Notes under the pieces: generated by a model
What the model was told of the DNA's origin: nothing
Database searches by the model: none
The model's input: only the letters and a program-made list of their open reading frames with translations
Shown: piece by piece, positions 520-27,669 of the stretch
Layout: each line of letters starts with the position of its first letter
Position numbering within the stretch: the stretch's first letter is position 1
DNA from: Prescottella sp. R16
GTDB taxonomy: Bacteria > Actinomycetota > Actinomycetes > Mycobacteriales > Mycobacteriaceae
Assembly (NCBI RefSeq): GCF_030656875.1
Contig: NZ_CP130943.1
Coordinates: 682,001-746,000 of the forward strand
DNA: 64,000 bases
Reading direction: 5' to 3'
Program-made: the position numbers and the translations under genes

Positions 520-581
520 CCACGTCGGCGGTGCCGACAGTTCCACACGTGCGACGCACTTCAACAGGACGGAAATCTCAG

Positions 582-3837: not shown

Positions 3838-4286
3838 GCCCTGTGACTCCCGTGACCCCGCTGAAGCCGCCGGTCGTCGAGGTGGGCGACACCCTGCCCA
3901 CCCTGGTCGTCGAGGGCACGCCGACGTTCGTCGTGTCGACGGCGTTGGCCACCCGCGACTTCCAGGACGTGCACCACGACCGGGATCTCGCGCAGCAGCG
4001 CGGCTCGAAGGACATCTTCGTCAACATCCTCACCGACACCGGTCTGGTGCAGCGGTACGTCACCGACTGGGCCGGGCAGCGTGCGGTGATCAAGTCGATC
4101 CAGCTGCGCCTCGGGGTGCCGTGGTACGCGTACGACACCCTCACCCTCACCGGCGCCGTCGAGGCGATCGACGACGACGGTCTGGTCACCCTCGCGGTCG
4201 TCGGCGTCGACTCGCTGGGCAAGCACATCACCTCCACCGTCACGCTCGTGATGGACGGTTCGATCAATGTGGGGAGCGGCTCGTGA
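3834..4286 (+). CDS. chsH1: ChsH1: MaoC-like enoyl-CoA hydratase subunit
   Basis: A 150-residue single hotdog domain. The segment ATRDFQDVHHDRDLAQQRG has the Asp and His residues expected of the hydratase-2 active site, so this subunit probably supplies catalysis while ChsH2 supplies most of the binding site. In mycobacteria the ChsH1-ChsH2 heterotetramer hydrates 3-oxo-4,17-pregnadiene-20-carboxyl-CoA. The gene starts at ATG 3834 inside the chsH2 stop (ATGA) and ends in a 4-base overlap with ltp2, consistent with equimolar expression. Confidence 0.92.
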   Translation: MSPVTPVTPLKPPVVEVGDTLPTLVVEGTPTFVVSTALATRDFQDVHHDRDLAQQRGSKDIFVNILTDTGLVQRYVTDWAGQRAVIKSIQLRLGVPWYAYDTLTLTGAVEAIDDDGLVTLAVVGVDSLGKHITSTVTLVMDGSINVGSGS

Positions 4287-5455
4287 GCGGACTGTCCGGC
4301 AAGGCGTCGATCGTCGGTATCGGCGCCACCGACTTCTCGAAGGATTCGGGGCGCAGCGAGCTGCGTCTGGCCGCGGAGGCGGTGAACGCGGCACTCGCCG
4401 ACGCGGGCCTCGAGCCCGCCGACGTCGACGGGCTCGTGTCGTTCACGATGGACACCAACATCGAGATCGCGGTCGCGCGGGCGGTCGGGATCCCGGAGCT
4501 GAAGTTCTTCTCCCGCATCCACTACGGCGGTGGCGCGGCCTGCGCGACGATCCAGCAGGCGGCGCTCGCGGTCGCGGGCGGTGTCGCCGACGTCGTCGTC
4601 GCGTACCGGGCGTTCAACGAACGGTCCGGGCACCGGTTCGGCCAGGTCGACTCCGGTCTGGTGAACCAGGTGAACTCGTCGGGCGCGGACTACGCGTTCT
4701 CGTACCCGCACGGGCTGAGCACCCCGGCCGGCAGTGTCGCGATGATGGCCCGCCGGTACATGCACCAGTACGGCGCCACCAGTGAGGATTTCGGCCGGAT
4801 CGCGGTCGCCGACCGCAAGCACGCGGCCACCAATCCGAACGCGTTCTTCTACGGCAAGCCGATCACCCTCGAGGACCACCAGAATTCGCGGTTCATCGCC
4901 GAACCGCTGCATCTGCTGGACTGCTGTCAGGAGTCGGACGGCGGCATCGCGATCGTGGTGGTGTCGGCGGAGCGGGCGAAGGACCTGAGGCAGAAGCCGG
5001 TCTCGATCGCGGCCGCGGCGCAGGGCAGCGCCAAGGACCAGTACACGATGATGAGCTACTACCGGCCCGACCTCGCGTGCATCCCCGAGATGGAACTGGT
5101 CGGCAACCAGCTGTGGGAGCAGTCCGGCCTGCGCCCGCAGGACATGGACATGGCGGTGCTGTACGACCACTTCACCCCGTACGTGCTCATGCAGCTCGAG
5201 GATCTCGGATTCTGCGGGCGCGGCGAGGCGAAGGACTTCGTGCGGCAGCCCGGTGCGCTCGAGGTCGGCGGCGCACTGCCGCTCAACACCCACGGCGGCC
5301 AACTCGGCGAGGCGTACATCCACGGGATGAACGGCATCGCCGAAGGTGTCCGCCAGATCCGCGGTACCTCCGTCAACCAGGTGCCCGACGCCCGCCAGGT
5401 GCTCGTCACCGCCGGCACCGGTGTTCCCACCTCGGGTCTGGTGCTGACGGCGTAG
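4283..5455 (+). CDS. ltp2: Ltp2: thiolase-fold steroid side-chain aldolase
   Basis: 390 residues (mycobacterial Ltp2 386) from GTG 4283, overlapping the chsH1 stop by four bases. The protein has the SCP-2/thiolase fold but no catalytic Cys at the usual nucleophile site (IHYGGGAACATIQQAALAV) and no GHP motif (it reads THGGQLGEAYIHG). Ltp2 is a retro-aldolase that splits the 17-hydroxy C22-CoA into androstenedione and propionyl-CoA in complex with the DUF35 part of ChsH2. YDHFTPY contains conserved tyrosines of the kind reported as catalytic. It is the last gene of the cluster; a hairpin follows at 5467. Confidence 0.93.
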   Translation: MSGLSGKASIVGIGATDFSKDSGRSELRLAAEAVNAALADAGLEPADVDGLVSFTMDTNIEIAVARAVGIPELKFFSRIHYGGGAACATIQQAALAVAGGVADVVVAYRAFNERSGHRFGQVDSGLVNQVNSSGADYAFSYPHGLSTPAGSVAMMARRYMHQYGATSEDFGRIAVADRKHAATNPNAFFYGKPITLEDHQNSRFIAEPLHLLDCCQESDGGIAIVVVSAERAKDLRQKPVSIAAAAQGSAKDQYTMMSYYRPDLACIPEMELVGNQLWEQSGLRPQDMDMAVLYDHFTPYVLMQLEDLGFCGRGEAKDFVRQPGALEVGGALPLNTHGGQLGEAYIHGMNGIAEGVRQIRGTSVNQVPDARQVLVTAGTGVPTSGLVLTA

Positions 5456-5466: not shown

Positions 5467-5510
5467 CTGTGCGCCTTTTCGGTGACCGAAACCATCGGAA
5501 AGGCGCACAG
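5467..5510. terminator. Hairpin terminator after ltp2
   Basis: A 12-bp perfect inverted repeat, CTGTGCGCCTTT / AAAGGCGCACAG, lies 12 bases after the ltp2 stop. There is no long T run, as is common in actinomycete terminators. Confidence 0.75.
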
Positions 5511-5573
5511 TCGTGGTCCCACTGGGTAGAAGTTTCCCGGAATCCGGCTCCCCGAGTGGCTACCGTCACAGGT

Positions 5574-7898
5574 ATGTCAGACAGTGTCTTAAATGCGCAT
5601 TCGTTCGCCGGAACCGTCACCGAGAACCTCGCCACCGCGACCCCGGCGTGGCCGTCCCGGCCGCGACCGGACGGCGCGCCGGACGTCGTCGTCATGATCG
5701 TCGACGACATGGGGTATTCCGATATCGGCCCGTTCGGTTCGGAGATCCCCACCCCGCACCTGGACGCGGTCGCCGCAGAGGGGGCGCGGCTCACCGACTT
5801 CCACGTCACCCCCACGTGCTCGCCGACACGGGCGTCACTGATGACGGGGTGTAATTCGCATGCCGTCGGGATGGGTGCGGTCGCCAACGTGGACACCGGT
5901 TTCCCCGGTTACGCCGCCGAACTCCCTGCACATCAGCCGACGATCGCCGAGACGTTCCGTACCGCGGGGTATTCGACGATGGCGATCGGCAAGTGGCACA
6001 TGTGCCGGGAGCAGGACATGCATGCGGCGGGGGACCGGCATTCGTGGCCGTTGCAGCGTGGTTTCGACCAGTACTACGGGTTCCTCGAGGCTCAGGCGAA
6101 CCTGCACGGGCCGGCGCAGTTGTACGAGGGCAACAATCCGGTGCACGTCACGGAGTACCCGGAGGGCTACTACCTCACCGACGACCTGACCGATCGTGCG
6201 GTGTCGATGATCGCCGAGTCGCACGCGTCGGATCCGAACAAGCCGCTGCTGATGTACTACGCGCATGCGGCGGTGCATGCCCCGATGCACATCAAACCCG
6301 GTACAGCCGACAAGTTCCGGGGCCGCTACGACGCCGGCTGGGAGCAGATCCGGGCCGCGCGCCGGGCCCGTCAGGACGAGCTCGGGGTGATCCCGGCAGA
6401 TGTGGGGACCGCACCGCTCGACGATCCGACCGGCTACGACGTCCCGGAGTGGGAGTCGTTGTCGGAGGACGGGAAACGTCTCGCGGCCCGGCACATGGAG
6501 AACTATGCGGCGATGATCGAGACGATCGACGAGTCGGTCGGCCGGATCCGGGACGTGTTGCGCCGGTGCGGGCGTCTGGAGAACACGATCTTCGTGTTCC
6601 TCAGCGACAACGGTGCCTCCGGTGGCGGCGGCGGGGACGTCGGCGTGATCAACCACCTGGCGAACCTGAACCGCACGCACACCCCGTCCACCGAGCAGCG
6701 GGTCGCCGAGGAGATCGGCCGGCTCGACGACATCGGCGGCCCGACGACGTGGCCGCAGTACGCGACGGCGTGGGCGACGGTGGCGAACACCCCGTTCCGG
6801 CGGCACAAGTTCAGCACCTACCGGGGCGGTCACCAGGTGTCGTTCCTGATGTCGTGGCCGGCGGGACTGGGGGAGATCGCGGGCGGGATCCGGCACCAGT
6901 ACGCGCACGTCACCGACCTGTTGCCGACGATCGCGGAACTGGCAGGGGTGCCCGTCGCGACCACCCGGCACGGTCTGGACGCCCGCCCGCTCGACGGGAC
7001 CTCGATGGTGGCGGCGCTGCGGGACCCGGATGCGCCCAGCAGTCACGGCGACCAGTACTACGAGTGCCTCGGCGAGCGCGCCTACTACGCGGGAGACTGG
7101 GAGGCGGTGGCACTCCGCACGCCGATGACTCCGTTCTCCCAGGATCGGTGGGCGCTCTACGATGTGGCGAACGATCCGATCCAGCTGACCGACGTCGCCG
7201 CCGAGAACCCAGATCGGGTCAAGGAACTGGCCTCGGACTGGGAGGACGCGGCGGCCCGTAATCAGGTGTATCCGATGGCCAACGGCAGCCCTCTGCACTG
7301 GTTCCAGCGGGACCCGGACGAGGAACGACTGGCCTGTGAGACGGTGCTGTTGCCGGAAACGCCTCCACTGGAACGGTTCCGGGCGAGCCAGCTGATCGAC
7401 GGACGCTCGTTCGCCGTCGACGTGACGTTGGGGGAGAACGGCTACCGGGCCGGGGACGAGGGTGTTCTGCTCGCCCACGGTGGACAGGAGGCCGGCTACG
7501 TCCTCTACGTCCGCGGCGGTGCGCTGCACCTCGAGCAGAACGCGTGGGGTCGCACGATCACCGCGGACTCGGCACCGATCCCGCCGGGCGCCCGAACGAT
7601 CCGGTTGCGCGTCGACGCCCCCGGCAAGCATCGCTGGGTCGCGGCCCTCGAGATCGACGGGACCGTCGTCCGTGAGGGTGTCGAACTGCTGCAGCTGTCG
7701 TGGCTGGTGCCGTTCAGCGGTCTGAGCGCCGGCACGATGTACCGCTCACCGGTGTCGTGGCAGCTGTACCGCGACCACGGCATGTTCCCGTACACGGGGG
7801 GCTGGGAGCGAATCGTCGTGCGCCCGGGCGAGTACGCCCCCGACGCCCCCGCAGTGATGCTCGATGCGATCCGCAAGATGGGCGCGGCGACGCAGTAG
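5574..7898 (+). CDS. Large type I sulfatase (AtsA/AtsD-like arylsulfatase)
   Basis: 774 residues, near the 787 of mycobacterial AtsA/AtsD. Metal-binding DD is at 44-45 (MIVDDMGYSD) and the formylglycine motif C82-S-P-T-R86 is intact, so the enzyme needs a formylglycine-generating enzyme, not seen in this window. GKWHMCREQD and FLSDNGASGG are further active-site blocks. A beta-rich C-terminal third follows, as in the other large sulfatase here (17417-19759). No signal peptide is apparent. ATG 5574 follows TACCGT (5562-5567) by six bases, so the mRNA may be leaderless. Sulfate ester substrate unknown; steroid sulfates are possible given the neighbours. Confidence 0.9.
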   Translation: MSDSVLNAHSFAGTVTENLATATPAWPSRPRPDGAPDVVVMIVDDMGYSDIGPFGSEIPTPHLDAVAAEGARLTDFHVTPTCSPTRASLMTGCNSHAVGMGAVANVDTGFPGYAAELPAHQPTIAETFRTAGYSTMAIGKWHMCREQDMHAAGDRHSWPLQRGFDQYYGFLEAQANLHGPAQLYEGNNPVHVTEYPEGYYLTDDLTDRAVSMIAESHASDPNKPLLMYYAHAAVHAPMHIKPGTADKFRGRYDAGWEQIRAARRARQDELGVIPADVGTAPLDDPTGYDVPEWESLSEDGKRLAARHMENYAAMIETIDESVGRIRDVLRRCGRLENTIFVFLSDNGASGGGGGDVGVINHLANLNRTHTPSTEQRVAEEIGRLDDIGGPTTWPQYATAWATVANTPFRRHKFSTYRGGHQVSFLMSWPAGLGEIAGGIRHQYAHVTDLLPTIAELAGVPVATTRHGLDARPLDGTSMVAALRDPDAPSSHGDQYYECLGERAYYAGDWEAVALRTPMTPFSQDRWALYDVANDPIQLTDVAAENPDRVKELASDWEDAAARNQVYPMANGSPLHWFQRDPDEERLACETVLLPETPPLERFRASQLIDGRSFAVDVTLGENGYRAGDEGVLLAHGGQEAGYVLYVRGGALHLEQNAWGRTITADSAPIPPGARTIRLRVDAPGKHRWVAALEIDGTVVREGVELLQLSWLVPFSGLSAGTMYRSPVSWQLYRDHGMFPYTGGWERIVVRPGEYAPDAPAVMLDAIRKMGAATQ

Positions 7899-8028: not shown

Positions 8029-8775
8029 TCACTTGCTTCGGAAGCGGGCGAAGGCGGCCTGTGCTTCGTCGGATCGTCGTCGCTCGGCGAAGTGCTCGGA
8101 CTCCACGTCCAGTGTTTCGAGCACGGTCTCGAGATGCGGGCGACGCAGCAACATCTTGGTCAACGCAACGGATTCGGCCGGCGCCGCTGCCAGACGACTC
8201 GCCCGATCGAGCGCCACTTCGAGTGCCCGCCCCTTCTCGACCACTCGGTTGATCAGCCCGGCCTCGGCGGCTTCGTCGGCATCGAACTCGTCGCCGAGCA
8301 GGAGCAGTTCCGTAGCTCGCTTGAGCCCGGCCACCTGTGGAAGCAGGTAGCTGGATCCACCTTCCGGGGACAATCCCAACGGCACGAACGGAACCCGGAA
8401 TCTGGTGCCGCTGCCGGCGAAGGCGAGATCGCAATGCAGCAGCATCGTGGTGCCGATGCCCACGGCGAAGCCTTCGACGGCCGCGAGGATCGGTTTGCGT
8501 GCAAGGGCCAGCGCCCGCAGAAACGTCATCGCCGCACCTTCCCCGGGCGCTCCGGGTTCAGCCGGTTCCTGGAAGTCGGCGATGTCGTTTCCGCTGGTGA
8601 ACACCCCACCCGAACCGGTGATGACGATCGCCCGCACATCGGGGTCGTGGTCCGTCTCCTCGATCGCAGCCGCGAGCGCACGATAGGCGCCGCGGTCGAG
8701 CGCGTTACGCCGCTCCGGCCTGTCGATGATCAGCAGACGCGTTCCAGCGCTGGGGTTTTCGATTCGTACTGCCAT
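8029..8775 (-). CDS. Enoyl-CoA hydratase/isomerase (crotonase family)
   Basis: 248 residues. The oxyanion-hole segments are TGSGGVFTSGNDIADF and AVEGFAVGIGTTMLLHCDLA; LGLSPEGGSSYLLP carries the Glu position typical of PaaG-like isomerases/hydratases. It is the last gene of a minus-strand operon beginning with the acyl-CoA ligase at 14752. ATG 8775 was chosen because MAVRIENPSAG is the family-like start; upstream in-frame starts (GTG 8787, ATG 8799) remain possible because GGAGG lies 13 bases upstream. Reaction: hydration or double-bond shift of an acyl-CoA made by this operon; substrate unknown. Confidence 0.85.
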   Translation of the reverse strand: MAVRIENPSAGTRLLIIDRPERRNALDRGAYRALAAAIEETDHDPDVRAIVITGSGGVFTSGNDIADFQEPAEPGAPGEGAAMTFLRALALARKPILAAVEGFAVGIGTTMLLHCDLAFAGSGTRFRVPFVPLGLSPEGGSSYLLPQVAGLKRATELLLLGDEFDADEAAEAGLINRVVEKGRALEVALDRASRLAAAPAESVALTKMLLRRPHLETVLETLDVESEHFAERRRSDEAQAAFARFRSK

Positions 8776-8842
8776 GAACTGACTCACGCCTCCATGCATC
8801 CCGATGGTCGTTGCTCTGCCGTCCCACGGACGAGCGATCTGC

Positions 8843-9871
8843 TCAGGTGAGCAGGTCGTGGAGAACGTTCCGGTTCGTCGCGAAGTCGGGGACGGTGCGC
8901 GACTCTTCCGCTTCGGTGATGAGCCGGTACAGGGCCTGGTTGAACGGCACGTCGACGCCATGCTTCGCCGCTACCTCGAGGACCCGGCCGTTGATGAAGT
9001 CTCGTTCGGTCGGAATGCCTTTCCTGAGGTCCTGCAGCATGCTCGCTTCGGCGTGCGGATGCTGCATCAGGATGCGAACCAAGAACTCGGCGTTCTCGTC
9101 GTGTGCCTGCCCGCTCGCTTCGGTGAACCGTTCGGCGGGCCGGCCGAAGACGTCGTCGACCGTGATCCCGTGTGCCCAGCCGGTTCGGATCGACTCCTCG
9201 GCAACGCGAAGAGCGATCTCGATCAACGTGGGATCGTCGATGACCGGCGTCATGTCACAGCCGAGAGCGGCGGACAGACCGCTGAACATCGAATTGACGA
9301 CCAGCTTCGACCATTTCATTCCGGTGATGTTGCTCGAGATGGAGCATTGTCCGACGGCAGAGAGGATCTCGGCGATCTCGCCGATGCGCTCGCTGTGAGA
9401 GCCATCGAGTTCTCCGAGGTCGAAGGCGTGCGCGCGTGTCACTTCGAGGGTGCTGGAGAGCTCACACACCCCGGGCTCCCTCCAGATGGCGGCGAACTGA
9501 ACGTTGCCGGCAACCGTGCGTTCCACTCCGACGATCGAAGCGACCTTGTCCTCAGGTGTTCCGTTCTGGAGTGTGCACACGATGCTGTCGCTCGAGAGGA
9601 ACGGCGAGATGCTGGTGAGAGCGCTTTCCGTTGCCGTCTGCTTGGTCAGCAGGAAGACCAGGTCGTACACACCGTTCAGTTGATCAGGCAGCTTCGCATC
9701 GACAGGGATGACCCTGTCGAGTGCTCCGGTGATTCTCACACCGTTCTCGTTCATGGCATCGACATGGGCTCTGTTCGTGTCGATCAGCTCGATGTTCCTG
9801 CCCTGGTCGGCAATGAGCGCACCCGTGATGGCGCCCAGCGACCCGGCACCGACTACCGCGATTCGGTTCAT
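8843..9871 (-). CDS. Ketopantoate reductase-family (PanE/ApbA) oxidoreductase
   Basis: 342 residues. The Rossmann start MNRIAVVGAGSLGAITGALI and the segments LLTKQTAT, LQNGTPEDKV and NITGMKWSKLVVNSMFSGLSA (Lys and Asn of the PanE active site) place it in the 2-dehydropantoate 2-reductase family. AAGGAG stands 8 bases before ATG 9871. It sits inside a degradative operon with CoA-ester enzymes, so a role in pantothenate synthesis is unlikely; NADPH-dependent reduction of a 2-oxo acid intermediate is more plausible, but this is inference. Confidence 0.85.
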   Translation of the reverse strand: MNRIAVVGAGSLGAITGALIADQGRNIELIDTNRAHVDAMNENGVRITGALDRVIPVDAKLPDQLNGVYDLVFLLTKQTATESALTSISPFLSSDSIVCTLQNGTPEDKVASIVGVERTVAGNVQFAAIWREPGVCELSSTLEVTRAHAFDLGELDGSHSERIGEIAEILSAVGQCSISSNITGMKWSKLVVNSMFSGLSAALGCDMTPVIDDPTLIEIALRVAEESIRTGWAHGITVDDVFGRPAERFTEASGQAHDENAEFLVRILMQHPHAEASMLQDLRKGIPTERDFINGRVLEVAAKHGVDVPFNQALYRLITEAEESRTVPDFATNRNVLHDLLT

Positions 9872-9980
9872 GTCGTAACTCCTTGACTCTGGTCTGTCGG
9901 AGGGGGCCCTGTACAGCGCAGCCGCCAATAGCATTCGGTGACCCGGCCGATTCGCCGATCACAGGGCGGCATCGTGCCCG

Positions 9981-11594
9981 TCAGGCTTGGTAGACCGTGT
10001 CGCCGCCCACGACGGTGCGCAGGACGTGCAGTGCGGACAGATCGCCGACCGGGTCGGCCTGGTCCGGGTCGGTGAGGGGGTCGCCGTCGAGCACCACGAA
10101 ATCGGCCCACAATCCCGGTTCGATCCGCCCCTTGACGCCGTCCTCGCGGGTGATCCGAGCAGCCTCGCTGGTGTAGCCGGCAAGTGCCTGGCGGGTGCTG
10201 ACACGCTCCTGGGCACCGAGGACGTGGCCGTCGCGGGTGACGCGGTGTACCGCGGTGTTCATCGTGAACAGCGGATCGACGGGCGTGACGGGGCAGTCGC
10301 AGTGCAGCGCGTAGGGCAGCCCGGCGGCGGCGACCGACGCGACGGGGCTGATGCGCTCGCCGCGTCCGGGCCCGAGGTAGCGGTCGCGGTGCCGGTCTCC
10401 CCAGTAGTAGACGTGATTGACGAAGATCGACGCGGACACGCCGAGCTCGGTCATACGCCGGATCTGGTCGTCGCGCAGGGTCTGCACGTGCTCGAGGCGG
10501 TGCGCGACATCCTGTTCCGGGTGTGCGGCCCGGGCCTTCTCGATGGCATCGAGACACAGGTCGATGGCCCGGTCGCCGTTGGTGTGGATCGCCACCGACC
10601 GTCCTGCCCCATGGTTTTCGGCGACCAGACGGTCGAGGTCTCCGGACGCGATCGCCATCTCGCCACAATGACAACCGCCGAGGTCGTGGTACGGCTCCGT
10701 CAGCGCCGCGGTGTGCAGCTGGATGGACCCGTCGGAGACGAGCTTCACACCGCCGATCTCCAGATGTGGCGTGGCATCGCCGATGTCGTCCAGCTGGTCG
10801 GCGGCATCGGCGTGGAGATAGAGCCGGGCGCGCAACTGCAATCGGCCGTCCAGGTCGAGCCGGCGGTAGGCCGGGTACAGGTGCGCGGGGACGAGCAGAT
10901 CGTGGTAACTCGTGACGCCGACCTTCGCCATCTCGGCCTGCGCGCGCAGCATCGCGCGGCAGGCGCTCTCGAGGTCGGCCGACGGCATCAGTCCGCCGAA
11001 CATAGACATCGCGGGCAGCTCACGCAGCTCACCGGTGGGGGTACCGTCCTCGAAGCGGACGATGACGCCGCCCTCCGGGTCCGGGGTGTGCGCCTCGACA
11101 CCGGCCTCGGCCAGTGCCACGGAGTTGAGGTAGATGCCGTGGTTCGAGGTGTGCCGCACCATGATCGGGTGCCGGGTGGACGCTCGGTCGAGGTCCTGGG
11201 CGGTCAGTCCACGGTCCTCCGCGACGAGGGAGTCGTCGAAACCCCAGGCCTCGATCAGCGTGCCCTCGGGTGTCTCGGCAGCGCGTGCCGCCAGCGCGGC
11301 CACGACCGCGTCGACCGTGGGGCAGGCTCGGGTGGTCGCGTCGACACCGGCGAGCATCAGCCCCCACATCAGCGGGTGCAGATGCGTCTCGATGAAACCC
11401 GGCACGACGGTGGCTCCGCCGAGGTCGACGACCTCGGCGGTGTCACCGGCCAGCGCCAGGATCTCCGCGTCGGTACCCACGGCAACGAACCTCCCCGCCG
11501 CGCACGCCACGGCGGTCGGCGCAGTCGCGGCCGCCTCTCCCGCGGACATGGTGCGGACGACTCCGTTGACGAACACGCGGTCGGGGCCGGTCAT
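9981..11594 (-). CDS. YtcJ-like metal-dependent amidohydrolase
   Basis: 537 residues of the amidohydrolase_3 family. PGFIETHLHPLMWG carries the HxH metal motif; GGVKLVSDGSIQLHTAAL, AIHTNGDRAID and RLEHVQTL hold the Lys/His/His positions of the barrel, and the C-terminus (EPGLWADFVVLDGDPLTDP) rebuilds the small beta domain. GGAGAAG precedes ATG 11594. It would hydrolyse an amide, cyclic amide or ester. It is 30 bases downstream of the thiolase-like gene in the same operon; substrate unknown. Confidence 0.9.
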   Translation of the reverse strand: MTGPDRVFVNGVVRTMSAGEAAATAPTAVACAAGRFVAVGTDAEILALAGDTAEVVDLGGATVVPGFIETHLHPLMWGLMLAGVDATTRACPTVDAVVAALAARAAETPEGTLIEAWGFDDSLVAEDRGLTAQDLDRASTRHPIMVRHTSNHGIYLNSVALAEAGVEAHTPDPEGGVIVRFEDGTPTGELRELPAMSMFGGLMPSADLESACRAMLRAQAEMAKVGVTSYHDLLVPAHLYPAYRRLDLDGRLQLRARLYLHADAADQLDDIGDATPHLEIGGVKLVSDGSIQLHTAALTEPYHDLGGCHCGEMAIASGDLDRLVAENHGAGRSVAIHTNGDRAIDLCLDAIEKARAAHPEQDVAHRLEHVQTLRDDQIRRMTELGVSASIFVNHVYYWGDRHRDRYLGPGRGERISPVASVAAAGLPYALHCDCPVTPVDPLFTMNTAVHRVTRDGHVLGAQERVSTRQALAGYTSEAARITREDGVKGRIEPGLWADFVVLDGDPLTDPDQADPVGDLSALHVLRTVVGGDTVYQA

Positions 11595-11624
11595 TGTTTC
11601 ACTTCTCCGTTCGTTGGGGCGTTT

Positions 11625-12755
11625 CTAGTCGTCGCCGACCATGATGTGCGCGTAGTTCACGCCACCGGCCCCGATCATGTGCGCGAAACCGATCCGGGCG
11701 TTCGGGTGCTGGCGCTCGCCGGACTGCCCGCGAATCTGCTGGACGATCTCGACGAACTGCGACATGCCGGTTGCGCCGCCGGGATGGCCGCGGCCGATGA
11801 GGCCGCCACTGGGGCTGACCGCGACACGGCCGCCGATGTGGAAGTCCCCGTCGGCCATTGCGATGGACGCCTTGCCTTCGGGTGCGAGACCCAGATCCTC
11901 GATGTACTGCAGCTCCTCGACGCTGAACGCCTCGTGCACTTCGACGACGTCGAGCTGGTCCGGCGTGATACCGGACTGCGCGAAGGCCTTCGCCGAGGTC
12001 CGCTTGGTGACCGTCAGATCCGGCATGAATGCGCCCGCGCTGTGCCACCTGTCGGATTCGGCGACCGCGGCGGCGATCCGGACCGCGCGGACTCCGTTCG
12101 AGGGCTTTCGGCTCGTGATGATCGCGGCTGCCGCGCCGTCGCCGATCGGGCAGGATTCGACTCGGCGCAGGGGGTCCACCAGCATCGGGGAGGCCCGGAG
12201 CTCGTCCATGGTGAGGGCCTTGCTGCGCTGCGCCATCGGGTTACGGCTGGCGTTGTACAGGTTCTTCTCCACCACGAGCAGACCGGCATCGGCGGACTCG
12301 CCGTATCGGTGCATGCGCGCCTGCTTCATCAACGCGAACGGCACCGCGGGCACGGACATGCCGGACACCGAGATCAGGTCCGGATCGCGTTCCTCCTCGG
12401 CGGCGCGGCTCATCAGGAGGGCGCCGAGACTGCCGATGCCGACCACCGCCGCAGTCTCGACCATGCCGGACGCGACGGCATACCGGGCCTGCTCGAAAGC
12501 GGCAGTGCCTGTGGCAGAGGCATTTTCGATGGCATACGTCGGGATGCCGGTCCAGCCCATCTCGTGGAGAACCGAGGGTGCCGCCGACATGTCCGTGCCG
12601 ATGGCGCCGACGACGAGTACGCCGACCTCGTTCCAGTCCAGGCCCGAGTCGGCGAGCGCGACTCCGAGTGCCTGCCCACCCTGGAGAGGGGCTGGGGTCG
12701 TGGTCTGCGAGACGATAGGGGTCATGCCGACGCCTGCGATGTAGGTCTCACGCAT
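11625..12755 (-). CDS. Thiolase-like (SCP-2 type) protein lacking the nucleophilic Cys
   Basis: 376 residues with thiolase fold. The position normally filled by the catalytic Cys reads ENAS80ATGTAAFEQA, i.e. Ser instead of Cys. HEAF replaces the usual NEAF, GRGHPGGATG keeps the His, and the C-terminal Cys block is replaced by AHMIGAGG. This combination suggests non-thiolytic chemistry such as the retro-aldol reaction of Ltp2. AAGGAGG precedes ATG 12755. It overlaps by eight bases the gene for a separate zinc-ribbon DUF35 protein, the usual partner of such enzymes. Confidence 0.88.
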   Translation of the reverse strand: MRETYIAGVGMTPIVSQTTTPAPLQGGQALGVALADSGLDWNEVGVLVVGAIGTDMSAAPSVLHEMGWTGIPTYAIENASATGTAAFEQARYAVASGMVETAAVVGIGSLGALLMSRAAEEERDPDLISVSGMSVPAVPFALMKQARMHRYGESADAGLLVVEKNLYNASRNPMAQRSKALTMDELRASPMLVDPLRRVESCPIGDGAAAAIITSRKPSNGVRAVRIAAAVAESDRWHSAGAFMPDLTVTKRTSAKAFAQSGITPDQLDVVEVHEAFSVEELQYIEDLGLAPEGKASIAMADGDFHIGGRVAVSPSGGLIGRGHPGGATGMSQFVEIVQQIRGQSGERQHPNARIGFAHMIGAGGVNYAHIMVGDD

Positions 12756-13131
12756 CGGAGTCCTCCTTGCCGAAGCCGTAGGTGGTGAACAGGTTGTCGT
12801 CGGAGCCGACGACGCGAGGCACCACGGCGACCTCGTCGCCGATACGCACCCCGTCTGCGCTGACACCGAGGATTTCGATTCCGCTGTCTGCCAGTCGAAC
12901 CTGCGCGATGTGCACCGGGGGCTGCATGCCGGCGATGGGGAACATCGCGGTGGAATGGGATACGACGGTCCCGTTTCCGGTGAGGTCGACGAGGTCGGCG
13001 GGGGCGTAGCAGTTCGCGCAGCGGTCGCGGGAGGGGAAGCTCACGGTGTCGCAGCGGGTGCAGCGGGCGCCGAGAAGGGTGACGCCGGCGTCGTCGCAGC
13101 GCAGCGCGGCGGTGTCGAATGATGGATGCAT
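12748..13131 (-). CDS. Zinc-ribbon DUF35 OB-fold protein, partner of thiolase-like enzyme
   Basis: 127 residues from ATG 13131. ARCTRCDTVSFPSRDRCANC contains two CxxC knuckles, followed by an OB-fold (NGTVVSHSTAMFPIAG ... VRIGDEVAVVP). Such proteins bind SCP-2-type thiolases and are often required for their activity. The gene overlaps the thiolase-like gene by eight bases. A GTG at 13191 overlapping the ligase stop would add 20 residues; neither start has a strong ribosome site, so the start is uncertain. Confidence 0.87.
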   Translation of the reverse strand: MHPSFDTAALRCDDAGVTLLGARCTRCDTVSFPSRDRCANCYAPADLVDLTGNGTVVSHSTAMFPIAGMQPPVHIAQVRLADSGIEILGVSADGVRIGDEVAVVPRVVGSDDNLFTTYGFGKEDSDA

Positions 13132-13183
13132 GTCAATTCGTTTCGTCTCTTGCGTGTGTGTCGATCGGAGGCCGTCCTGCGGG

Positions 13184-14752
13184 TCAGACACGGCGTTTCT
13201 GATCCGTCCAGTACAGCTCGCGGAGGTTCTTCTTGAGGACCTTGCCGTTGACGCTGCGGGGCAGGCGCTCGATGAGGTCGACCCGCTTCGGGGTGCGCAC
13301 GGAGCCGAGCTTCTCGCGGCACAGGTCGATCAGCTCGGCGATGTCGATGTCGGTGTCGGGCTTGAGTTCGACGACGGCGGTGACGGCCTCACCCCACTTG
13401 TCGTCGGGGACTCCGATCACGGCACAGTCCTGGACCGCGGGGTGTGACCAGATGACCTGTTCGACCTCGGCCGGGAACACGTTGAAGCCGCCGGAGATGA
13501 TCATGTCCTTCTTGCGGTCGGTCAGCGTCAGGTATCCGCGGTCGTCGAGGAAGCCGATATCGCCGGTGTGCAGCCAGCCGTCGCGGATTGCCTCGGCCGT
13601 GGCCTCCGGATTGTTGTAGTAGCCCCTCATGACGAGGTCGCCCCGCACACAGATCTCGCCGTGCGTGCCGGCGGGGACCGGCTTGTCCTCGTCGTCGCGG
13701 ATCTCGATCTTGACCAGTGGGAAGGGGCGTCCGCAGCTGAGCAGGCGGGCGTCGTCGGCGATCTCGCCGTCGACGAAATGCTCCTCCGGGCGCAGGAACG
13801 CGATGGAGCCGGGGGCCTCGGTCTGGCCGAAGCACTCGATCATGACCGGGCCGAACAGGCCGATGGCCTGGCGCAGCTTCTCCACGGACATCGGCGCCGA
13901 GCCGTACAGGAAGTAGCGCAGGGATTTCAGGTTGTGATCGGTCAGGCCGGGGGTCTCGATGAGGCGGTAGATCACAGTCGGCGGTAGGAACAGGTCGGTG
14001 ACGCCGAACCGGTCGATGGCGTCGAGCAGCGCGGCGGGGTCGGGTCGGCCCAGCACGACGACGCAGCCGCCGCGGGCGCTGGCGGGCAGGGTGAGGATGC
14101 CCGCGGAGTGGGTCATGGGGGCGGCGGCGAGGTTCACCACCGGTTCGTCGGCCCGGTAGTGCAGGGCCATCATCATCTGCGTGATACAGGTCCCGAAGCT
14201 GCGGTGAGTGTTCATGACGCCCTTGGGCAGGCCCGTCGTGCCGCCGGTGGGTGAGATCACGGCGAGGGAGTCCTGCGGGACATCGACACGCGGCCGGGTG
14301 GCCGGAGCATCGCCGAGCCAGTCCTGCAGCGGCGTGGCGTAAGGGCGGGCTCCGTCGCCTTCTCCGTCGAGGCAGATGTACGTGATGCCGTCGCCGACTG
14401 CCGCATGGATCTCGTCGACCGCCGCGGCCTTCGACGGGTGGTAGAACAGCACCTCGCAGTCGAACCGCTGGATGAAACCGATGCTGTCGGCGGTCGGACT
14501 GTTCGGATTCAGCGGGACCCAGGCGCCGCCGACACGCCAGGCGCCGATGACACACAGCCAGGCGGCCGGGTCGTTCGGGGCGAGCACGGCGATCTTCGTC
14601 TCGAGTTCGATCCCGTCCCGCAGCAGCGCGTTGGACACCCGGCAGGACAGCTCGCCGGCCTCCTGGAAGGTCCACTCGGCGTCGCCGTAGCGGTAGGCCA
14701 CTGCCTCCGGACTGATGTTCCATCCCTGATCGAAGTAGTCCGACAGAGCCAT
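13184..14752 (-). CDS. Acyl-CoA synthetase (AMP-forming)
   Basis: 522 residues of the ANL superfamily. SPTGGTTGLPKGVMN is the phosphate loop, YGSAPMSVEKL and FGQTEAPG the adenylate-binding motifs, WLHTGDIGFLDDRGYL the Asp motif, and RKKDMIISGGFNVFPAEVE the hinge; Lys in SVNGKVLKKNLRE is the adenylation lysine. AAAGGACG precedes ATG 14752. It would activate an imported carboxylic acid to its CoA ester. It is the first gene of the six-gene minus-strand operon and is divergent from an MFS acid transporter. Confidence 0.92.
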   Translation of the reverse strand: MALSDYFDQGWNISPEAVAYRYGDAEWTFQEAGELSCRVSNALLRDGIELETKIAVLAPNDPAAWLCVIGAWRVGGAWVPLNPNSPTADSIGFIQRFDCEVLFYHPSKAAAVDEIHAAVGDGITYICLDGEGDGARPYATPLQDWLGDAPATRPRVDVPQDSLAVISPTGGTTGLPKGVMNTHRSFGTCITQMMMALHYRADEPVVNLAAAPMTHSAGILTLPASARGGCVVVLGRPDPAALLDAIDRFGVTDLFLPPTVIYRLIETPGLTDHNLKSLRYFLYGSAPMSVEKLRQAIGLFGPVMIECFGQTEAPGSIAFLRPEEHFVDGEIADDARLLSCGRPFPLVKIEIRDDEDKPVPAGTHGEICVRGDLVMRGYYNNPEATAEAIRDGWLHTGDIGFLDDRGYLTLTDRKKDMIISGGFNVFPAEVEQVIWSHPAVQDCAVIGVPDDKWGEAVTAVVELKPDTDIDIAELIDLCREKLGSVRTPKRVDLIERLPRSVNGKVLKKNLRELYWTDQKRRV

Positions 14753-15094
14753 GCTGGTCGTCCTTTCCATCCTGCCCATCGAGGACACGGCGGGGTCGTT
14801 TCGGAGAGGTGATCCCACGTCGGCGCAGTGGGTGTGACGGCCGTCTCAGGTCATCGTCATGCAATTTAAACTACATGTCTTTAAGTTTGTTCAGCTGGTG
14901 ATGCAGATCACACTTCGAGATCAACGGTGCAGTATGGCGAGTGTTTGGCCATTGACCAGAAAACTGACCTCCATTAAGTTTTCGTGTGACTGCCGACACA
15001 GTACCGGATGTCGGGTCGCCACGCTCCTCGACCTTGACCGGCTGCCCCCGGCCCGCAGCGCCGGTCTCAGCCTCTCCCTCACGTTAGGAATCTC
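14753..15094. promoter_or_regulatory. Divergent intergenic region, ligase operon / MFS transporter
   Basis: 342 bases without a convincing gene. An AT-rich island at 14860-14890 contains the inverted repeat AAACT-N11-AGTTT (14868-14888), a candidate regulator site for the TetR protein encoded at 16488-17114. GTTAGGA stands just before the transporter ATG. Confidence 0.5.
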
Positions 15095-16429
15095 ATGCCT
15101 ACAGCGCGTGAGCTGATCGACTCCTCGTCGATCGGCCGACTTCAGATCCGTGTGATCCTTCTGTGTGCCCTGGCCGCGATGGCGGAGGGGTACGACATCC
15201 TCTCGATTTCCTTGGCGGTGTTGCCGATCACCGACGACTGGGGGATCTCGGGCACCGAGTCCGGCCTGTTGTTCAGTGCGGGGTTGGTGGGAATGGCGGT
15301 GGGTTCCATCGCGCTCGGCCCGGTCGGCGACCGCTACGGGCGGCGACCCCTGCTGATCGGATCGTTGGTGGTGATCACCGTGGGCATGGCGCTCTCGGCC
15401 GTGGCAGGGGACGTCACCCAGCTCGCACTGCTGCGCCTGCTGACCGGTCTCGGCATGGGCGGGATCATCCCCAGCCTGCCGGTGATCGTCAGCGAGTTCT
15501 CCCCGACGCGGAAGCGCCCGACCTTCATCGCCATGTTCGGTACCGGGATCCCGCTCGGAGGACTGCTCGGCGGCGCCGCGGCGGCGATGCTGCTGAACCA
15601 CTACAGCTGGCATTCCGTGTTCTGGCTCGGTGCGGTCCTGACCGGCGTCATCGCACTCGTCGCCTACCTGTCCATCCCCGAATCGCCGGATTACCTCGAG
15701 TCCAAGGGGACCGAGTCCGCGCGCACGCGGCTCGACGAGCTGATCCGGAAGATGAACCTGCAGCCGGCCGCCACAAGGGCCGCCGCTCCGGCGGCGGCGC
15801 CCTCCGGCGCGGGGACCGCGGCGCTGAAGTCATGGGCGATCGTCATCACTTGCCTGGTGTTCTTCCTGGTCAACTCCATTTACTTCTTCGGTAACTCGTG
15901 GACTCCGAAGCTCCTCACGCTGGCCGGTCTGTCGCAGGGCGAGGGCATCAGCGGTGCTCTGCTGTTCTCGCTCGGCGGTGTGATCGGCAACCTGATCTTC
16001 GCCGTGCTCGCGATCCGGTTCACCGCGATGTGGGTCGCCTGCGGTTTCGCGTTGGGCGGCTCGGCGCTGTTCTGTTTCATGTCGCTGATCTCGACGCAGC
16101 TCGGCCCGGTCCTGGTGTCCACGGCGCTGCTCGGTGTCTGCCTGATGGCAACCTTCACCGGCCTGTACGTCATGGTGCCGGTGCTCTTCCGCCCGGAGGC
16201 TCGGGTCTCGGCGATGGGCATCGCCGCGGGTCTCGGACGCGTCGGCAGCATCGCCACCCCGATGGTGGTGGGCTGGCTGGTCGACGCGAACTGGGCCACC
16301 AGCTCGATCTTCATGGTGTTCGTGATCCCGGCGGCGCTCGCGGCGCTCGGAATCGGCTACGCCCAGGTCCGTAACAATCGAACTGTGGCCACGGCCGGCG
16401 ACTCCGACAAGATACTGGCCTCGGCCTAG
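15095..16429 (+). CDS. MFS transporter, aromatic-acid:H+ symporter-like
   Basis: 444 residues with about 12 hydrophobic helices. The N-terminus RVILLCALAAMAEGYDILSI carries the acidic Asp of helix 1 typical of AAHS transporters (usual form DGYD/DGFD), and GPVGDRYGRRPLLIG is the MFS signature loop. The central loop (about 205-250) is Ala/Pro-rich. Divergent from the acyl-CoA ligase operon, it probably imports the acid that the ligase activates. Substrate not known. Confidence 0.85.
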   Translation: MPTARELIDSSSIGRLQIRVILLCALAAMAEGYDILSISLAVLPITDDWGISGTESGLLFSAGLVGMAVGSIALGPVGDRYGRRPLLIGSLVVITVGMALSAVAGDVTQLALLRLLTGLGMGGIIPSLPVIVSEFSPTRKRPTFIAMFGTGIPLGGLLGGAAAAMLLNHYSWHSVFWLGAVLTGVIALVAYLSIPESPDYLESKGTESARTRLDELIRKMNLQPAATRAAAPAAAPSGAGTAALKSWAIVITCLVFFLVNSIYFFGNSWTPKLLTLAGLSQGEGISGALLFSLGGVIGNLIFAVLAIRFTAMWVACGFALGGSALFCFMSLISTQLGPVLVSTALLGVCLMATFTGLYVMVPVLFRPEARVSAMGIAAGLGRVGSIATPMVVGWLVDANWATSSIFMVFVIPAALAALGIGYAQVRNNRTVATAGDSDKILASA

Positions 16430-16487: not shown

Positions 16488-17114
16488 TCAGCCCACCCGG
16501 TTCTCGTGCGTCACACCGAACAGGAAGTTCCGCATCATCTGCTCGTAGAGCTGACGCGGAGTGGACTGGTTCGATTCCAGCGCAGCGCTGAGGACCGGGT
16601 GCTCGGCCGCGTTGACATTGGCGAAGACCGCGGCCTGCTGCGACTCCGGGCGCATCGCTTCCGCCACGATGGCGCCAAGCGTGAGCTTCTCCACGCCGTT
16701 GAGGATCGGAACGTGCAGCTGGGTCGGGACGCCGGACTCCTCGAGATAGATGGCAGTTTCTTCCCACATGTCGGTGACGATGTCGGCGGGAAGGAACTGC
16801 AGCAGCACCGCTGCCGCCTTACGGTGCCGCAGGACAGCTTTACGAAAGTTCAAGCCGTAGGCGACGATCCAGTCCTGCCATTGTCCCGATGCCGGCCTCC
16901 GCGGGATGCGCGTCTGCAAGACGATGGCGCGTGCCACCTCGGCGAGGATTTCCGATTTATCGGCGAAGTGGTGATAGAGCGCGGGAGCGGTGACGCCGAG
17001 GCTCCGCGCGAGGCGCGGCAGGCTGAACGCTTCCAAGCCCTCGCCGTCGATGATCTCGAGCGCCGCGGCCACAGCACCGTCTCGGTTGATCAACGGCTTG
17101 GACGGTCGAGCCAT
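16488..17114 (-). CDS. TetR-family regulator
   Basis: 208 residues. The N-terminal helix-turn-helix is GLEAFSLPRLARSLGVTAPALYHHFADKSEI, followed by an alpha-helical ligand domain. GAGGAG precedes ATG 17114. It is convergent with the MFS transporter and likely controls the transporter/ligase divergent promoter; target inferred from position only. Confidence 0.88.
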   Translation of the reverse strand: MARPSKPLINRDGAVAAALEIIDGEGLEAFSLPRLARSLGVTAPALYHHFADKSEILAEVARAIVLQTRIPRRPASGQWQDWIVAYGLNFRKAVLRHRKAAAVLLQFLPADIVTDMWEETAIYLEESGVPTQLHVPILNGVEKLTLGAIVAEAMRPESQQAAVFANVNAAEHPVLSAALESNQSTPRQLYEQMMRNFLFGVTHENRVG

Positions 17115-17416: not shown

Positions 17417-19759
17417 CTAGTGCGTCGCCAGTGCGATCCGCTGGCGTTCGGCCGCGGTTTCGGGTCGACCCTCGCCGGGCAGATCGACGCGGACGTGGTG
17501 GAGGCGTCCGGTGAAGTCGAAGCGACCGGTGATGTCGCTGCACACGGGGCTGCCGCGGTTGAGGCCGATGTCGAGCTGTTCGTTCATGCTGAACATTGCG
17601 CGGGTGGTTTCCTCGATGCGGCCGCGGGCCACCTCGACACCGTCGACGGACAGGATTGCGGTGCCGCCCTTGCCGAGACCGCCGCCGTCGTAGACGAACT
17701 CGACGGAGACCTCACGGGTGGCGTCGGTGAGTTCGACGTCGGAGCGGATGTAGGTGAGTCCGCCGCCACTGAAGTGGTAGCAGAACACCGGTGTGGAGTC
17801 GACGACGTACAGGGCGAGTCCGCCGAACGATCCGCCGAGGCTCGCCAGGACGCCTTCACACGGCTTTCCGCCGGTCTCGAGGGAGGCGGTGAGCGTGTAC
17901 GAGCGGTTGAACAGCGGCGGTGCCGCCTTCTCCGGCAGGCCGTTCATGTGCGGGTACAGGGTGATCGAGGTGCGTCCGCGCAGCGGGTGCGGCGGCCGGT
18001 CCTCGGGGGCGGCGTTACGGGTCACGGTCCGGTCGTCGAGCGGCAGTACCTGGAACTTGGCGGCCTCGACGAGGAACTTCTGCTTGAGTTCCTCGAGTTT
18101 CTCGGGGAACTCGGCGGCCACGTCCCGGGCCTGCGACCAGTCGACGGTGGTGTCGTACAGTTCCCACCGGTCCTCGTCGAACGTGGGCAGTTGCAGCCCG
18201 TAGGTGGCCATCAGCCACGGCGCCCGGTGCAGTGTCACTGCGGTCCAGCCGTGGTCGTAGATGCCGCGGTTGCCGTAGATCTCGAAGTACTGGGTGGTGT
18301 GCCGGTCGGCGGCGTCGGCGTCGGCGAACGTGTAGTTCATCGAGACACCTTCCATCGGCTTCTGGGGGACACCGTCGACGGTGTCCGGGGCCGGGACGCC
18401 GACGGCCTCGAGGATCGTCGGGGTGATGTCGACGCAGTGGTGCCACTGGTTCCGGACGACACCGGTGTCACTGATTCCCTTGGGCCAGTGCGCGATCAGA
18501 CCGTTGCGGGTGCCGCCGTAGTGCGACGCGGCCTGCTTGGTCCACTGGTAGGGGGTGTCGAGGGCCATCGCCCACGACGCCGGATAGTGCGGGTAGCTCT
18601 CCGGGGTGCCCAGCAGGTCGAGCTTCTCGAGCACCTCCGCGGTGGTCTGCTTGTAGCCGTTGAGGCCGGCGAGGTAGTTGAACGAGCCCTCCATACCGCC
18701 CTCGGCGGATGCGCCGTTGTCGCCGAGCATGTACAGCACCAGCGTGTTGTCGAGAGCGCCGGACGCCTGCAGGTGGTCGACGAGCCGGCCGACCTGGTCG
18801 TCGGTGTGCTCGAGGAACGCCGCATACAGTTCCATGAGGCGTGCGGAGACGAGCTTCTGATCGTCGTCCAGTTCGTCCCAGTGTGGCAGTCCCGGTGCCC
18901 ACGGTGCGAGTTCGGTCTCGGGCGGTACGACGCCGAGCTGCTTCTGCTTCTCGAGGGTGATCTCGCGCAGGCGGTCCCAGCCCTCGTCGAACTCGCCGCG
19001 GTACGTGTCGAGGTAGCTGTCCGGCACCTGGAGCGGGGCGTGGCATGCACCGAACGGCAGGTAGCAGAACCACGGCTTGTCGGGGTCCATCGTGGACACC
19101 GAGTCGATCCACTCGATCGCGTTGTCCACCAAGTCTTCCGACATGTGGTACCCCTCCTCGGGGGTACGCGGCAGGTCGACGACGGTGAAGTCGCGGTAGA
19201 GGACGGGGGAGAACTGGTCGGACTCGGCGCCGAGGAAGCCGTAGAAGCGGTCGAAGCCTTCACGGGTGGGCCACCGGTCGAACGGGCCGGCCTCGCTGAT
19301 CTCCCACGTCGGCGTCTGATGCATCTTGCCGAACGCGCCGGTGGCATAGCCGTTGCCCTGCAGGACGCGGGCCACGGTTGCGGCCGACGCCGGACGGGTC
19401 CCGTTGTAACCCGGTGCGGCCGTAGCCTGTTCGGCGATAACGCCGAAGCCGACACTGTGGTGGTTGCGGCCGGTGAGGGTGGCGGCGCGGGTCGGCGAGC
19501 ACAGTGCGGTGGTGTGGAACCGGGTGTACTTGACGCCGTCGGACGCCAGTCGTTCCGCGGTGGGGGTGCGGCACGGTCCACCGAATGCCGACGCGGCGCC
19601 GAAGCCGACGTCGTCGAGCATCACCAGCAGGACGTTGGGGGCACCGGCGGGCGGGCGCACCGGCTGCGGGCGGGTGAACGGCTCCTTCTGGTCGCGGTAG
19701 TCGACGGATGCCGGCGGCTGTGGATCGTTCGGCACGATCGGTATCGAATGACGGTTCAC
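17417..19759 (-). CDS. Large type I sulfatase (AtsA/AtsD-like arylsulfatase)
   Basis: 780 residues. DD at 49-50 (LLVMLDDVGFG), formylglycine motif C87-S-P-T-R91, GKMHQTP, MLGDNGASAEGG; a beta-rich C-terminal region from about residue 560. GTG 19759 is chosen for the GAGAGG seven bases upstream; a start at 19810 would place the hairpin at 19783-19806 inside the coding region. It is divergent from a TetR gene, with a 15-bp palindrome between them, and a TauD-type dioxygenase follows that TetR. Together they look like a sulfate-ester/sulfonate scavenging unit. No signal peptide seen. Confidence 0.9.
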   Translation of the reverse strand: MNRHSIPIVPNDPQPPASVDYRDQKEPFTRPQPVRPPAGAPNVLLVMLDDVGFGAASAFGGPCRTPTAERLASDGVKYTRFHTTALCSPTRAATLTGRNHHSVGFGVIAEQATAAPGYNGTRPASAATVARVLQGNGYATGAFGKMHQTPTWEISEAGPFDRWPTREGFDRFYGFLGAESDQFSPVLYRDFTVVDLPRTPEEGYHMSEDLVDNAIEWIDSVSTMDPDKPWFCYLPFGACHAPLQVPDSYLDTYRGEFDEGWDRLREITLEKQKQLGVVPPETELAPWAPGLPHWDELDDDQKLVSARLMELYAAFLEHTDDQVGRLVDHLQASGALDNTLVLYMLGDNGASAEGGMEGSFNYLAGLNGYKQTTAEVLEKLDLLGTPESYPHYPASWAMALDTPYQWTKQAASHYGGTRNGLIAHWPKGISDTGVVRNQWHHCVDITPTILEAVGVPAPDTVDGVPQKPMEGVSMNYTFADADAADRHTTQYFEIYGNRGIYDHGWTAVTLHRAPWLMATYGLQLPTFDEDRWELYDTTVDWSQARDVAAEFPEKLEELKQKFLVEAAKFQVLPLDDRTVTRNAAPEDRPPHPLRGRTSITLYPHMNGLPEKAAPPLFNRSYTLTASLETGGKPCEGVLASLGGSFGGLALYVVDSTPVFCYHFSGGGLTYIRSDVELTDATREVSVEFVYDGGGLGKGGTAILSVDGVEVARGRIEETTRAMFSMNEQLDIGLNRGSPVCSDITGRFDFTGRLHHVRVDLPGEGRPETAAERQRIALATH

Positions 19760-19782
19760 ATCAAGGCCTCTCGATCGATTTA

Positions 19783-19806
19783 GGAGGTGCCGCGGTCGGC
19801 ACCTCC
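19783..19806. other. 5' UTR hairpin ahead of sulfatase
   Basis: Perfect 10-bp stem GGAGGTGCCG / CGGCACCTCC with a 4-base loop, just upstream of the sulfatase ribosome site. A second hairpin, CCCGCCTT / AAGGCGGG (19860-19878, 3-base loop), lies further upstream. Confidence 0.5.
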
Positions 19807-19914
19807 ACACATGTAAGGCACGTTCTTAAAGTCCGTGGGGTGGAGTTTCGTCAACCGATCCCGCCTTGTCAAGGCGGGTGCCCGAGGTGCGGTACGGCGC
19901 CGCCACTTGACGTT

Positions 19915-19943: not shown

Positions 19944-20576
19944 GTGACCAGCTCCGGTAGTGCCAAGGACGCGATGATCGAAGTAGCTGAACGCATGTTC
20001 GCCGAAAAGGGCATCGACGGTGTATCGATGCGCGACGTCGCCTCTGCTGCCGGGCAGAAGAACAATTCGGCGGTCCAATACCACTTCGGTGGCCGAGACG
20101 GACTCCTGCTCGAGGTGTTCCGGCGCCGTATGAAGGAGATCAACCGGAGCCGACGGCAGTTCCTCGACGACATCGACGCCGACGGACGCGGCCACGACGT
20201 ACGTGCCCTCGTCGAGGCCGTCGTGCTTCCGCTCGCGGACTATCTGCGCACTTCCGGGACCGAGTCCTACTACGCGCAGTTCATCGCCCGTGTCTCGCCG
20301 ATGGTGGACATGGGCAGTCCCGACCTGGAGGCGGTCAGCGACGCGAGTCGTGCGGTGTCGGCGCGGCTGATCGCCGCGCTCGACCACCTTCCGCGGCGGG
20401 CCGCGGCGGCCCGTACCGCACTGATGCTCAACATGGCGGTGTCCGGGCTCGCGATGTACGAGCAGCTCCGCGCCCACGGCAAGGCGATGGAGTCCGCGAA
20501 CTTCGACGAGACGGTCGCGCATCTCGTCGACATGTCGGTCGGTGCACTCGAAGCGCCCTTCACCCCACAACCCTGA
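19944..20576 (+). CDS. TetR-family regulator, divergent from sulfatase
   Basis: 210 residues from GTG 19944. The helix-turn-helix is GIDGVSMRDVASAAGQKNNSAVQYHFGGRDGL. The C-terminal domain is all-helical. The 15-bp palindrome at 19915 next to its start and the divergent sulfatase indicate that it controls both, and probably also the dioxygenase 52 bases downstream. Ligand unknown. Confidence 0.88.
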   Translation: MTSSGSAKDAMIEVAERMFAEKGIDGVSMRDVASAAGQKNNSAVQYHFGGRDGLLLEVFRRRMKEINRSRRQFLDDIDADGRGHDVRALVEAVVLPLADYLRTSGTESYYAQFIARVSPMVDMGSPDLEAVSDASRAVSARLIAALDHLPRRAAAARTALMLNMAVSGLAMYEQLRAHGKAMESANFDETVAHLVDMSVGALEAPFTPQP

Positions 20577-20628
20577 GCGACAACCCCGAGCCGGCGGAAG
20601 CCGCTCGAATCGACGATCGGAGAATGCA

Positions 20629-26691: not shown

Positions 26692-26742
26692 TCCTGTACT
26701 CCAAAAATGTCGAGGGGGAGGGAGATTCGGATGCAGATGTGC

Positions 26743-26774
26743 CCGGTCGGGCCGGCTGATGCCGACCCGACCGG
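26743..26774. terminator. Hairpin terminator after the kstD operon
   Basis: CCGGTCGGG (26743-26751) pairs with CCCGACCGG (26766-26774), plus inner CGGC/GCCG. It follows the minus-strand MaoC gene by about 20 bases. Confidence 0.6.
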
Positions 26775-26795
26775 TAGAGCTGTGCCGGTCCGGAA

Positions 26796-27656: not shown

Positions 27657-27669
27657 GTCGTCTCTCCTG

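Follow-up and report, generated by a model that had tools for sequence, protein, structure and literature searches.

Several described systems resemble parts of the locus analyzed here. HpeE and HpeF, which belong to acetovanillone catabolism in Rhodococcus, have been proposed as a coenzyme A (CoA) synthetase and a 3-ketoacyl-CoA hydrolase and are homologs of CouL and CouO from p-hydroxycinnamate catabolism, according to the accessible portion of the report (PMC9618137). For piperine breakdown by R. ruber, the accessible portion of the description assigns the conversion of piperic acid to piperonylic acid jointly to PipU, PipV, PipW and PipX, with single-step evidence for the PipU ligase only (PMC12753220), and in the aldolases Sal and Ltp2 the tyrosine of a conserved motif is needed (PMC12329534). 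Here we compare with such systems a gene cluster within a 64,000-nucleotide stretch of Prescottella sp. R16 DNA (the window), centered on a thiolase-like protein with serine at the nucleophile position. With a little less than even confidence, we read this cluster as a TetR-controlled module that would use an externally supplied carboxylic acid, with cleavage of a 3-ketoacyl-CoA by the thiolase-like protein; the degradation route may be undescribed, although CoA-dependent acid catabolism is itself known. The cluster comprises the following features, in window coordinates:

8029..8775, minus strand: crotonase-fold protein without both hydratase glutamates (PF00378)
8843..9871, minus strand: PanE/ApbA-like NAD(P)-dependent oxidoreductase (PF02558 and PF08546; TIGR00745)
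9981..11594, minus strand: amidohydrolase, Amidohydro_3, YtcJ-like (PF07969, 5.5e-99)
11625..12755, minus strand: serine-type thiolase-like protein, 376 amino acids (Ser80; His274 in HEAF; His324 in GHP)
12748..13131, minus strand: DUF35 protein with zinc ribbon and OB fold, presumably the subunit that pairs with the thiolase-like protein (PF12172, PF01796)
13184..14752, minus strand: AMP-forming acyl-CoA ligase, 522 amino acids (PF00501, 2e-71; PF13193)
14867..14888, minus strand: operator-like site 1, AAACTTAAAGACATGTAGTTTA (second-best matrix score in the window, 14.4 bits)
14960..14981, minus strand: operator-like site 2, AAACTTAATGGAGGTCAGTTTT (best matrix score in the window, 18.9 bits)
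15095..16429, plus strand: divergent major facilitator superfamily (MFS) transporter, aromatic-acid/H+ symporter-like (TIGR00895, 5.9e-83, below the curated cut-off)
16488..17114, minus strand: TetR-family protein, presumed regulator of the unit (PF00440)

The six minus-strand enzyme genes and the divergent plus-strand MFS gene recognized in a preliminary description of this DNA are real and fall into clear Pfam families. The dedicated TetR gene that it proposed is likewise present, at 16488-17114, beyond the range 8029..16429 given there for the unit, and presumably regulates it. Its label for the transporter, aromatic acid/H+ symporter (AAHS)-like, is fair as a statement of likeness, TIGR00895 being the best-scoring family; strict membership does not follow, since the score of 279 bits lies below the cut-off of 418.55. 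From the crotonase gene to the ligase gene, the intergenic gaps computed from the coordinates are 67, 109, 30, -8 and 52 bases, the negative value being an 8-base overlap of the DUF35 and thiolase genes. The start of the latter was set at 12755, the start position of its six closest homologs, and refined starts were also adopted for the PanE-like (9871), ligase (14752) and crotonase (8775) genes.

Thiolases are textbook cysteine enzymes, and it is at this cysteine that the protein departs from them. The position aligned with the cysteine of BbsB and the SCP2-thiolases is occupied by Ser80 (NASATG), and each of the 116 homologs checked (a set gathered by shared words; best 120 of 236) likewise has serine there, so that the nucleophilic cysteine of SCP2-type thiolases is absent. 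Both catalytic histidines, those of HEAF and GHP, are kept, and the position of the aldolase tyrosine (YD[HCA][FY]) is histidine in the same 116 homologs. In the tree, the Ser-type proteins form a single group beside the SCP2 thiolases (98/94), separate from the four aldolase-type rows (100/100). An AlphaFold2 model of the protein (mean predicted local distance difference test score 93.3) has a thiolase fold, the closest folds to this prediction being SCP2-thiolase and benzoylsuccinyl-CoA thiolase. Judged by its residues, the protein belongs neither with the cysteine thiolases nor with tyrosine-type aldolases such as Ltp2, Sal and IpfD. The DUF35 protein scores above the cut-off for PF12172 and below it for PF01796, and its zinc ribbon (C-x2-C-x10-C-x2-C) is intact, as fits an adjacent C4-ribbon OB-fold partner; a complex of the two proteins is predicted. 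The sources label Ser-type homologs 'acetyl-CoA acetyltransferase' or 'thiolase family protein' (best 120 of 236).

A scan of named genomes with two peptide patterns yielded 14 loci; the scan favors Ser-type loci because one of the patterns contains the serine motif. Cys-type relatives came instead from separate homolog searches; of 29 loci read from one of these, 5 are Ser-type and 24 Cys-type. Besides the window, intact loci were found in Rhodococcus sp. ARC_M6, R. erythropolis NBRC 15567, Rhodococcus sp. P-2 and Amycolatopsis jejuensis (together our loci L048, L049, L050 and L052), those of NBRC 15567 and P-2 being near-copies. A core of TetR, MFS, ligase, DUF35 and thiolase genes is present in all five, and the gene order of the window core is kept in all four relatives, with TetR inverted in Amycolatopsis. 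Identities to the window proteins are 73-86% for the ligases, which occupy the same place in each, 65-81% for the MFS proteins and 62-72% for the TetR proteins encoded beside them. The amidohydrolase occurs in three of the five, directly after the thiolase in L048 (82%) and L052 (66%), and the PanE-like and crotonase genes in the window alone (1/5). The six enzyme genes, grouped as one operon in the preliminary description, are hence not a conserved unit, and the gene content of the five intact loci rules them out as an ancestral one. Third-position G+C is lower in the PanE-like (0.802) and crotonase (0.755) genes than in the ligase, DUF35, thiolase, amidohydrolase and MFS genes (0.859-0.908), which fits a later arrival of the former two, yet the TetR gene is low as well (0.828).

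The operon thiolase was not found in 13 genus mates (best match 36% identity), and no other genome matched in a 396-genome phylum sample at E 1e-90; two more close thiolases bear Streptomyces names among the matches listed (best 120 of 236). A decayed unit, with fragments of TetR, MFS, thiolase and amidohydrolase only, is present in Rhodococcus sp. IEGM 1379 (L054) and was excluded from the intact-locus counts.

The intergenic region between the ligase and MFS genes contains, in all five intact loci, two sites like AAACCTAAYG-N6-GGTTTA. A matrix built only from the six sites of L048, L049 and L052, and thus from no window sequence, ranks the two sites of the window at the top of the 64 kb, with 18.9 and 14.4 bits against 9.8 bits for the next best; in 40 first-order Markov simulated windows, the best score had a mean of 9.7 and a maximum of 13.5 bits. 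No strong operator-like site lies elsewhere in the window, and none points to steroid or sulfatase genes. A pattern derived from the sites and allowing at most two mismatches finds only the two window sites in the entire 4.57 Mb genome. The TetR protein is a candidate to bind these putative operators. The conservation of core order in other species and one other genus, together with that of two 22-base sites, indicates that the arrangement is more than chance.

To relate this core to a reaction, we examined the neighborhoods of more distant relatives, using 8-kb scans whose reference proteins came partly from the loci L107, L117, L119 and L051 themselves. Eleven Ser-type loci of greater distance (37-53% identity) all have an enoyl-CoA hydratase (ECH) gene within 8 kb, and 10 of them a short-chain dehydrogenase/reductase (SDR) gene; both were present at each of the six Cys-type loci examined. 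For 27 control loci centered on homologs of the amidohydrolase or PanE, the corresponding counts are 0 and 4; these controls are partly dependent (12 are orthologous regions, 11 of those from a single genus), and those centered on PanE are shorter than 16 kb. The ECHs of the distant Ser-type loci keep both hydratase glutamates in 9 of 11 cases, L053 and L055 having Gln at the first. Hydratase and SDR genes near these thiolases correspond to the order hydration, oxidation and cleavage, which makes 3-ketoacyl-CoA cleavage the best reading. FMO/BVMO-like flavin monooxygenase and Abhydrolase_3-type genes also lie near Ser-type units in two genomes (L048:1814-5160, L106:3440-5959) and possibly represent an upstream ketone-to-ester step.

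Under 3-ketoacyl-CoA cleavage, the reactions that we infer would begin with import of the carboxylic acid by the MFS protein and formation of its CoA thioester by the ligase. The thiolase-like protein, its active site closed by DUF35, would then split the 3-ketoacyl-CoA in a retro-Claisen reaction, by means of serine, or of directly attacking CoA or water, in place of cysteine, giving acetyl- or acyl-CoA along with a shorter product, either an acid or an acyl-CoA. The core alone would suffice if the substrate were already a 3-keto acid. Uptake, CoA activation and C-C cleavage, as envisaged in the preliminary description, can thus be retained conditionally. In the window only, three extra enzymes might widen entry, with the PanE-like protein oxidizing a hydroxy acid to a keto acid and the crotonase shifting a double bond. 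The PanE-like protein belongs to TIGR00745 (167.3 bits, above the cut-off of 141.35), and its homologs at 45% adjoin a 3-keto-5-aminohexanoate cleavage protein in two of two plasmid regions (Paracoccus and Priestia); this linkage, scanned with two references only and with two regions incomplete, is only suggestive of a 3-hydroxyacid dehydrogenase.

Several observations weigh against this interpretation. Out to 8 kb, the four close intact relatives have neither ECH nor PanE, and SDR is missing from two of them; we infer from this absence that the keto acid would arrive ready-made or come from enzymes encoded elsewhere. None of 12 actinobacterial genome regions showed the linkage of PanE to a 3-keto acid cleavage protein, and the role of the amidohydrolase, which might free the acid from a conjugate or hydrolyze a product, is a guess. 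Cys-to-Ser is a crippling change in thiolases, and the C123S and C88S thiolase structures among the fold matches are engineered variants. Finally, the genome-wide uniqueness of the operator sites says little, since a reversed-pattern control also gave two matches.

It is conceivable, if on the doubtful side, that the Ser-type proteins constitute an undescribed and widespread class of DUF35-dependent thiolases, of single origin from cysteine enzymes, cleaving 3-ketoacyl-CoAs via serine or without a covalent nucleophile, and that TetR-MFS-ligase-DUF35-thiolase is its smallest complete version, passing an imported keto acid directly on to cleavage. Next to cysteine thiolases and tyrosine aldolases, such a clade would represent a third type of solution. 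In the open-access literature, subscription papers being outside the search, we found no serine-type thiolase and no pathway with a serine-type DUF35-thiolase. The compactness of a unit combining regulator, operator, transporter, ligase and cleavage enzyme makes substrate discovery practical, and TetR with its putative operators could act as a biosensor assay.

A different reaction would follow if the protein were a retro-aldolase like Ltp2, Sal and IpfD, converting a 3-hydroxyacyl-CoA to an aldehyde or ketone and an acyl-CoA, and the minimal core would then need no dehydrogenase. The absence of a dedicated dehydrogenase from the close clade, the pairing with DUF35 and the lack of the nucleophilic cysteine, as in Sal, agree with this. 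We nevertheless consider it unlikely, given that histidine replaces the tyrosine of YD[HC][FY] in every homolog checked, that the tree sets the Ser-type proteins apart from the aldolases, and that the predicted fold is nearer to thiolases.

The surroundings of the cluster raise a further possibility, namely a steroid-specific unit that, with the flanking sulfatases and a TauD-like dioxygenase, would strip a side chain or ring fragment from a sulfated steroid or bile compound. As a steroid locus the window is accessory and the second in the genome; several gene names in it were judged from Pfam and gene order:

37-5455: acyl-CoA dehydrogenase genes with ChsH2-, ChsH1- and Ltp2-like genes
5469-7898 and 17417-19810: two sulfatases flanking the operon (809 and 797 amino acids), both with CSPTR
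19944-21546: TetR gene, then TauD-family dioxygenase (gene at 20542)
24838-34206: cholesterol oxidase, KshA, KstD-, HsaA-, HsaD- and HsaC-like genes
35535-37634: neutral ceramidase gene within the steroid locus
to about 61931: further acyl-CoA genes

The flanking sulfatases, one of them directly after the Ltp2-like gene, share 37% identity over 639 amino acids, and the closest PDB entries to the TauD-family protein are taurine dioxygenases, with Rv3406 and the alkylsulfatase AtsK lower in the list. This setting notwithstanding, scans out to 8 kb around the four intact relatives gave no match to any of five markers (KshA, HsaC, HsaA, cholesterol oxidase, sulfatase), so that the steroid context may be incidental; the next best operator-like site in the window is weak, and the transporter is aromatic-acid-like. 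We therefore regard a steroid-specific role as improbable, and the open-access literature contained no sulfated-steroid pathway that fits. The other steroid cluster of the genome lies at 4.15-4.27 Mb, and the Ltp2-like proteins of the two are 70% identical; the order of that cluster is shared with the opened parts of three genus mates, which excludes the window as the genus's main steroid cluster. Near it, a DUF35-like, a thiolase-like and a ligase gene and possibly an amidohydrolase of another type (L071:281-7981; by eye, with no NCBIfam match at 1e-30) form a set of similar make-up but other families.

The preliminary description placed hydration after activation, an order that with oxidation and thiolysis would amount to ordinary beta-oxidation of an unsaturated acid. 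All the activity classes are nominally in the window, but the crotonase has Thr and Phe at the Glu144/Glu164-type places and so lacks the glutamate pair kept by most ECHs at the distant Ser-type loci, leaving the hydration step unsupported. The five solved structures nearest to it also lack both glutamates, though depositors name most of them hydratases, and it has a PE motif (SPEGGS), as in isomerase-like crotonases, which we take to resemble that of the Delta3,Delta2-enoyl-CoA isomerase ECI2. The missing cysteine of the thiolase, and the lack of PanE and crotonase genes in the other four intact core loci, likewise leave little credence for beta-oxidation. An amide or ester cut, also suggested in the preliminary description, is no more than a candidate reaction for the amidohydrolase. 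This protein has metal-ligand-like motifs and a second copy elsewhere in the genome (62% match), and relatives (60-62%) were present in 10 of 13 genus mates and in a single genome outside the genus; 12 regions around these relatives and the paralog yielded none of the other operon genes, and in two of the 12 the neighbors resemble peptide ABC transporter genes (by eye, from sequence starts).

A biosynthetic condensing or acyl-transferring system like PhlABC merits hardly any credence: PhlC- and PhlB-like entries occur among the sequence and fold relatives, and the best match of the DUF35 protein is a weak one to a Phl-type entry, but the thiolase subunit is less similar to PhlC than to BbsB and SCP2-thiolase, no operon gene is PhlA-like, and the transporter, ligase, TetR and relatives' neighbors look catabolic.

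The preliminary description knew of no pathway with this gene set, and we likewise found no synteny with CouL/CouO, HpeE/F, PipU-X, IpfDEF, Ltp2-ChsH2 or Sal-Shy, several of these being compared through accessible portions of their papers rather than by sequence. As far as those portions go, CouL/CouO and HpeE/HpeF share with the route proposed for the operon a ligase followed by 3-ketoacyl-CoA cleavage, and their descriptions, like that of PipU-X, include no DUF35-thiolase pair, unlike the operon. The ibuprofen genes ipfF, ipfD and ipfE of pIBU218 (L155:4621-7827) encode a ligase, an OB-fold and a thiolase-like protein adjacently, as here, the assignment resting on gene order because the record names none (genes from the accessible portion of PMC9195938). 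IpfD, however, has YDAF and Tyr at the GHP position and is 29% identical to the operon thiolase over 184 amino acids, and the set adjoins an aromatic-ring-hydroxylating dioxygenase; the motif rules out IpfDEF as the same system. The Ltp2-ChsH2 and Sal-Shy aldolases resemble the operon pair in thiolase fold, DUF35 partner and absence of the nucleophilic cysteine, and differ in using the tyrosine of YDHF or YDCY, where the operon protein has histidine, and in having a MaoC-fused DUF35, which in the operon is a separate small protein. The benzoylsuccinyl-CoA thiolase BbsAB likewise combines DUF35 and thiolase subunits, has HDAF and GHP motifs and is among the two nearest folds, but BbsB keeps the nucleophilic cysteine (ACSAG) where the operon thiolase has serine (NASATG).

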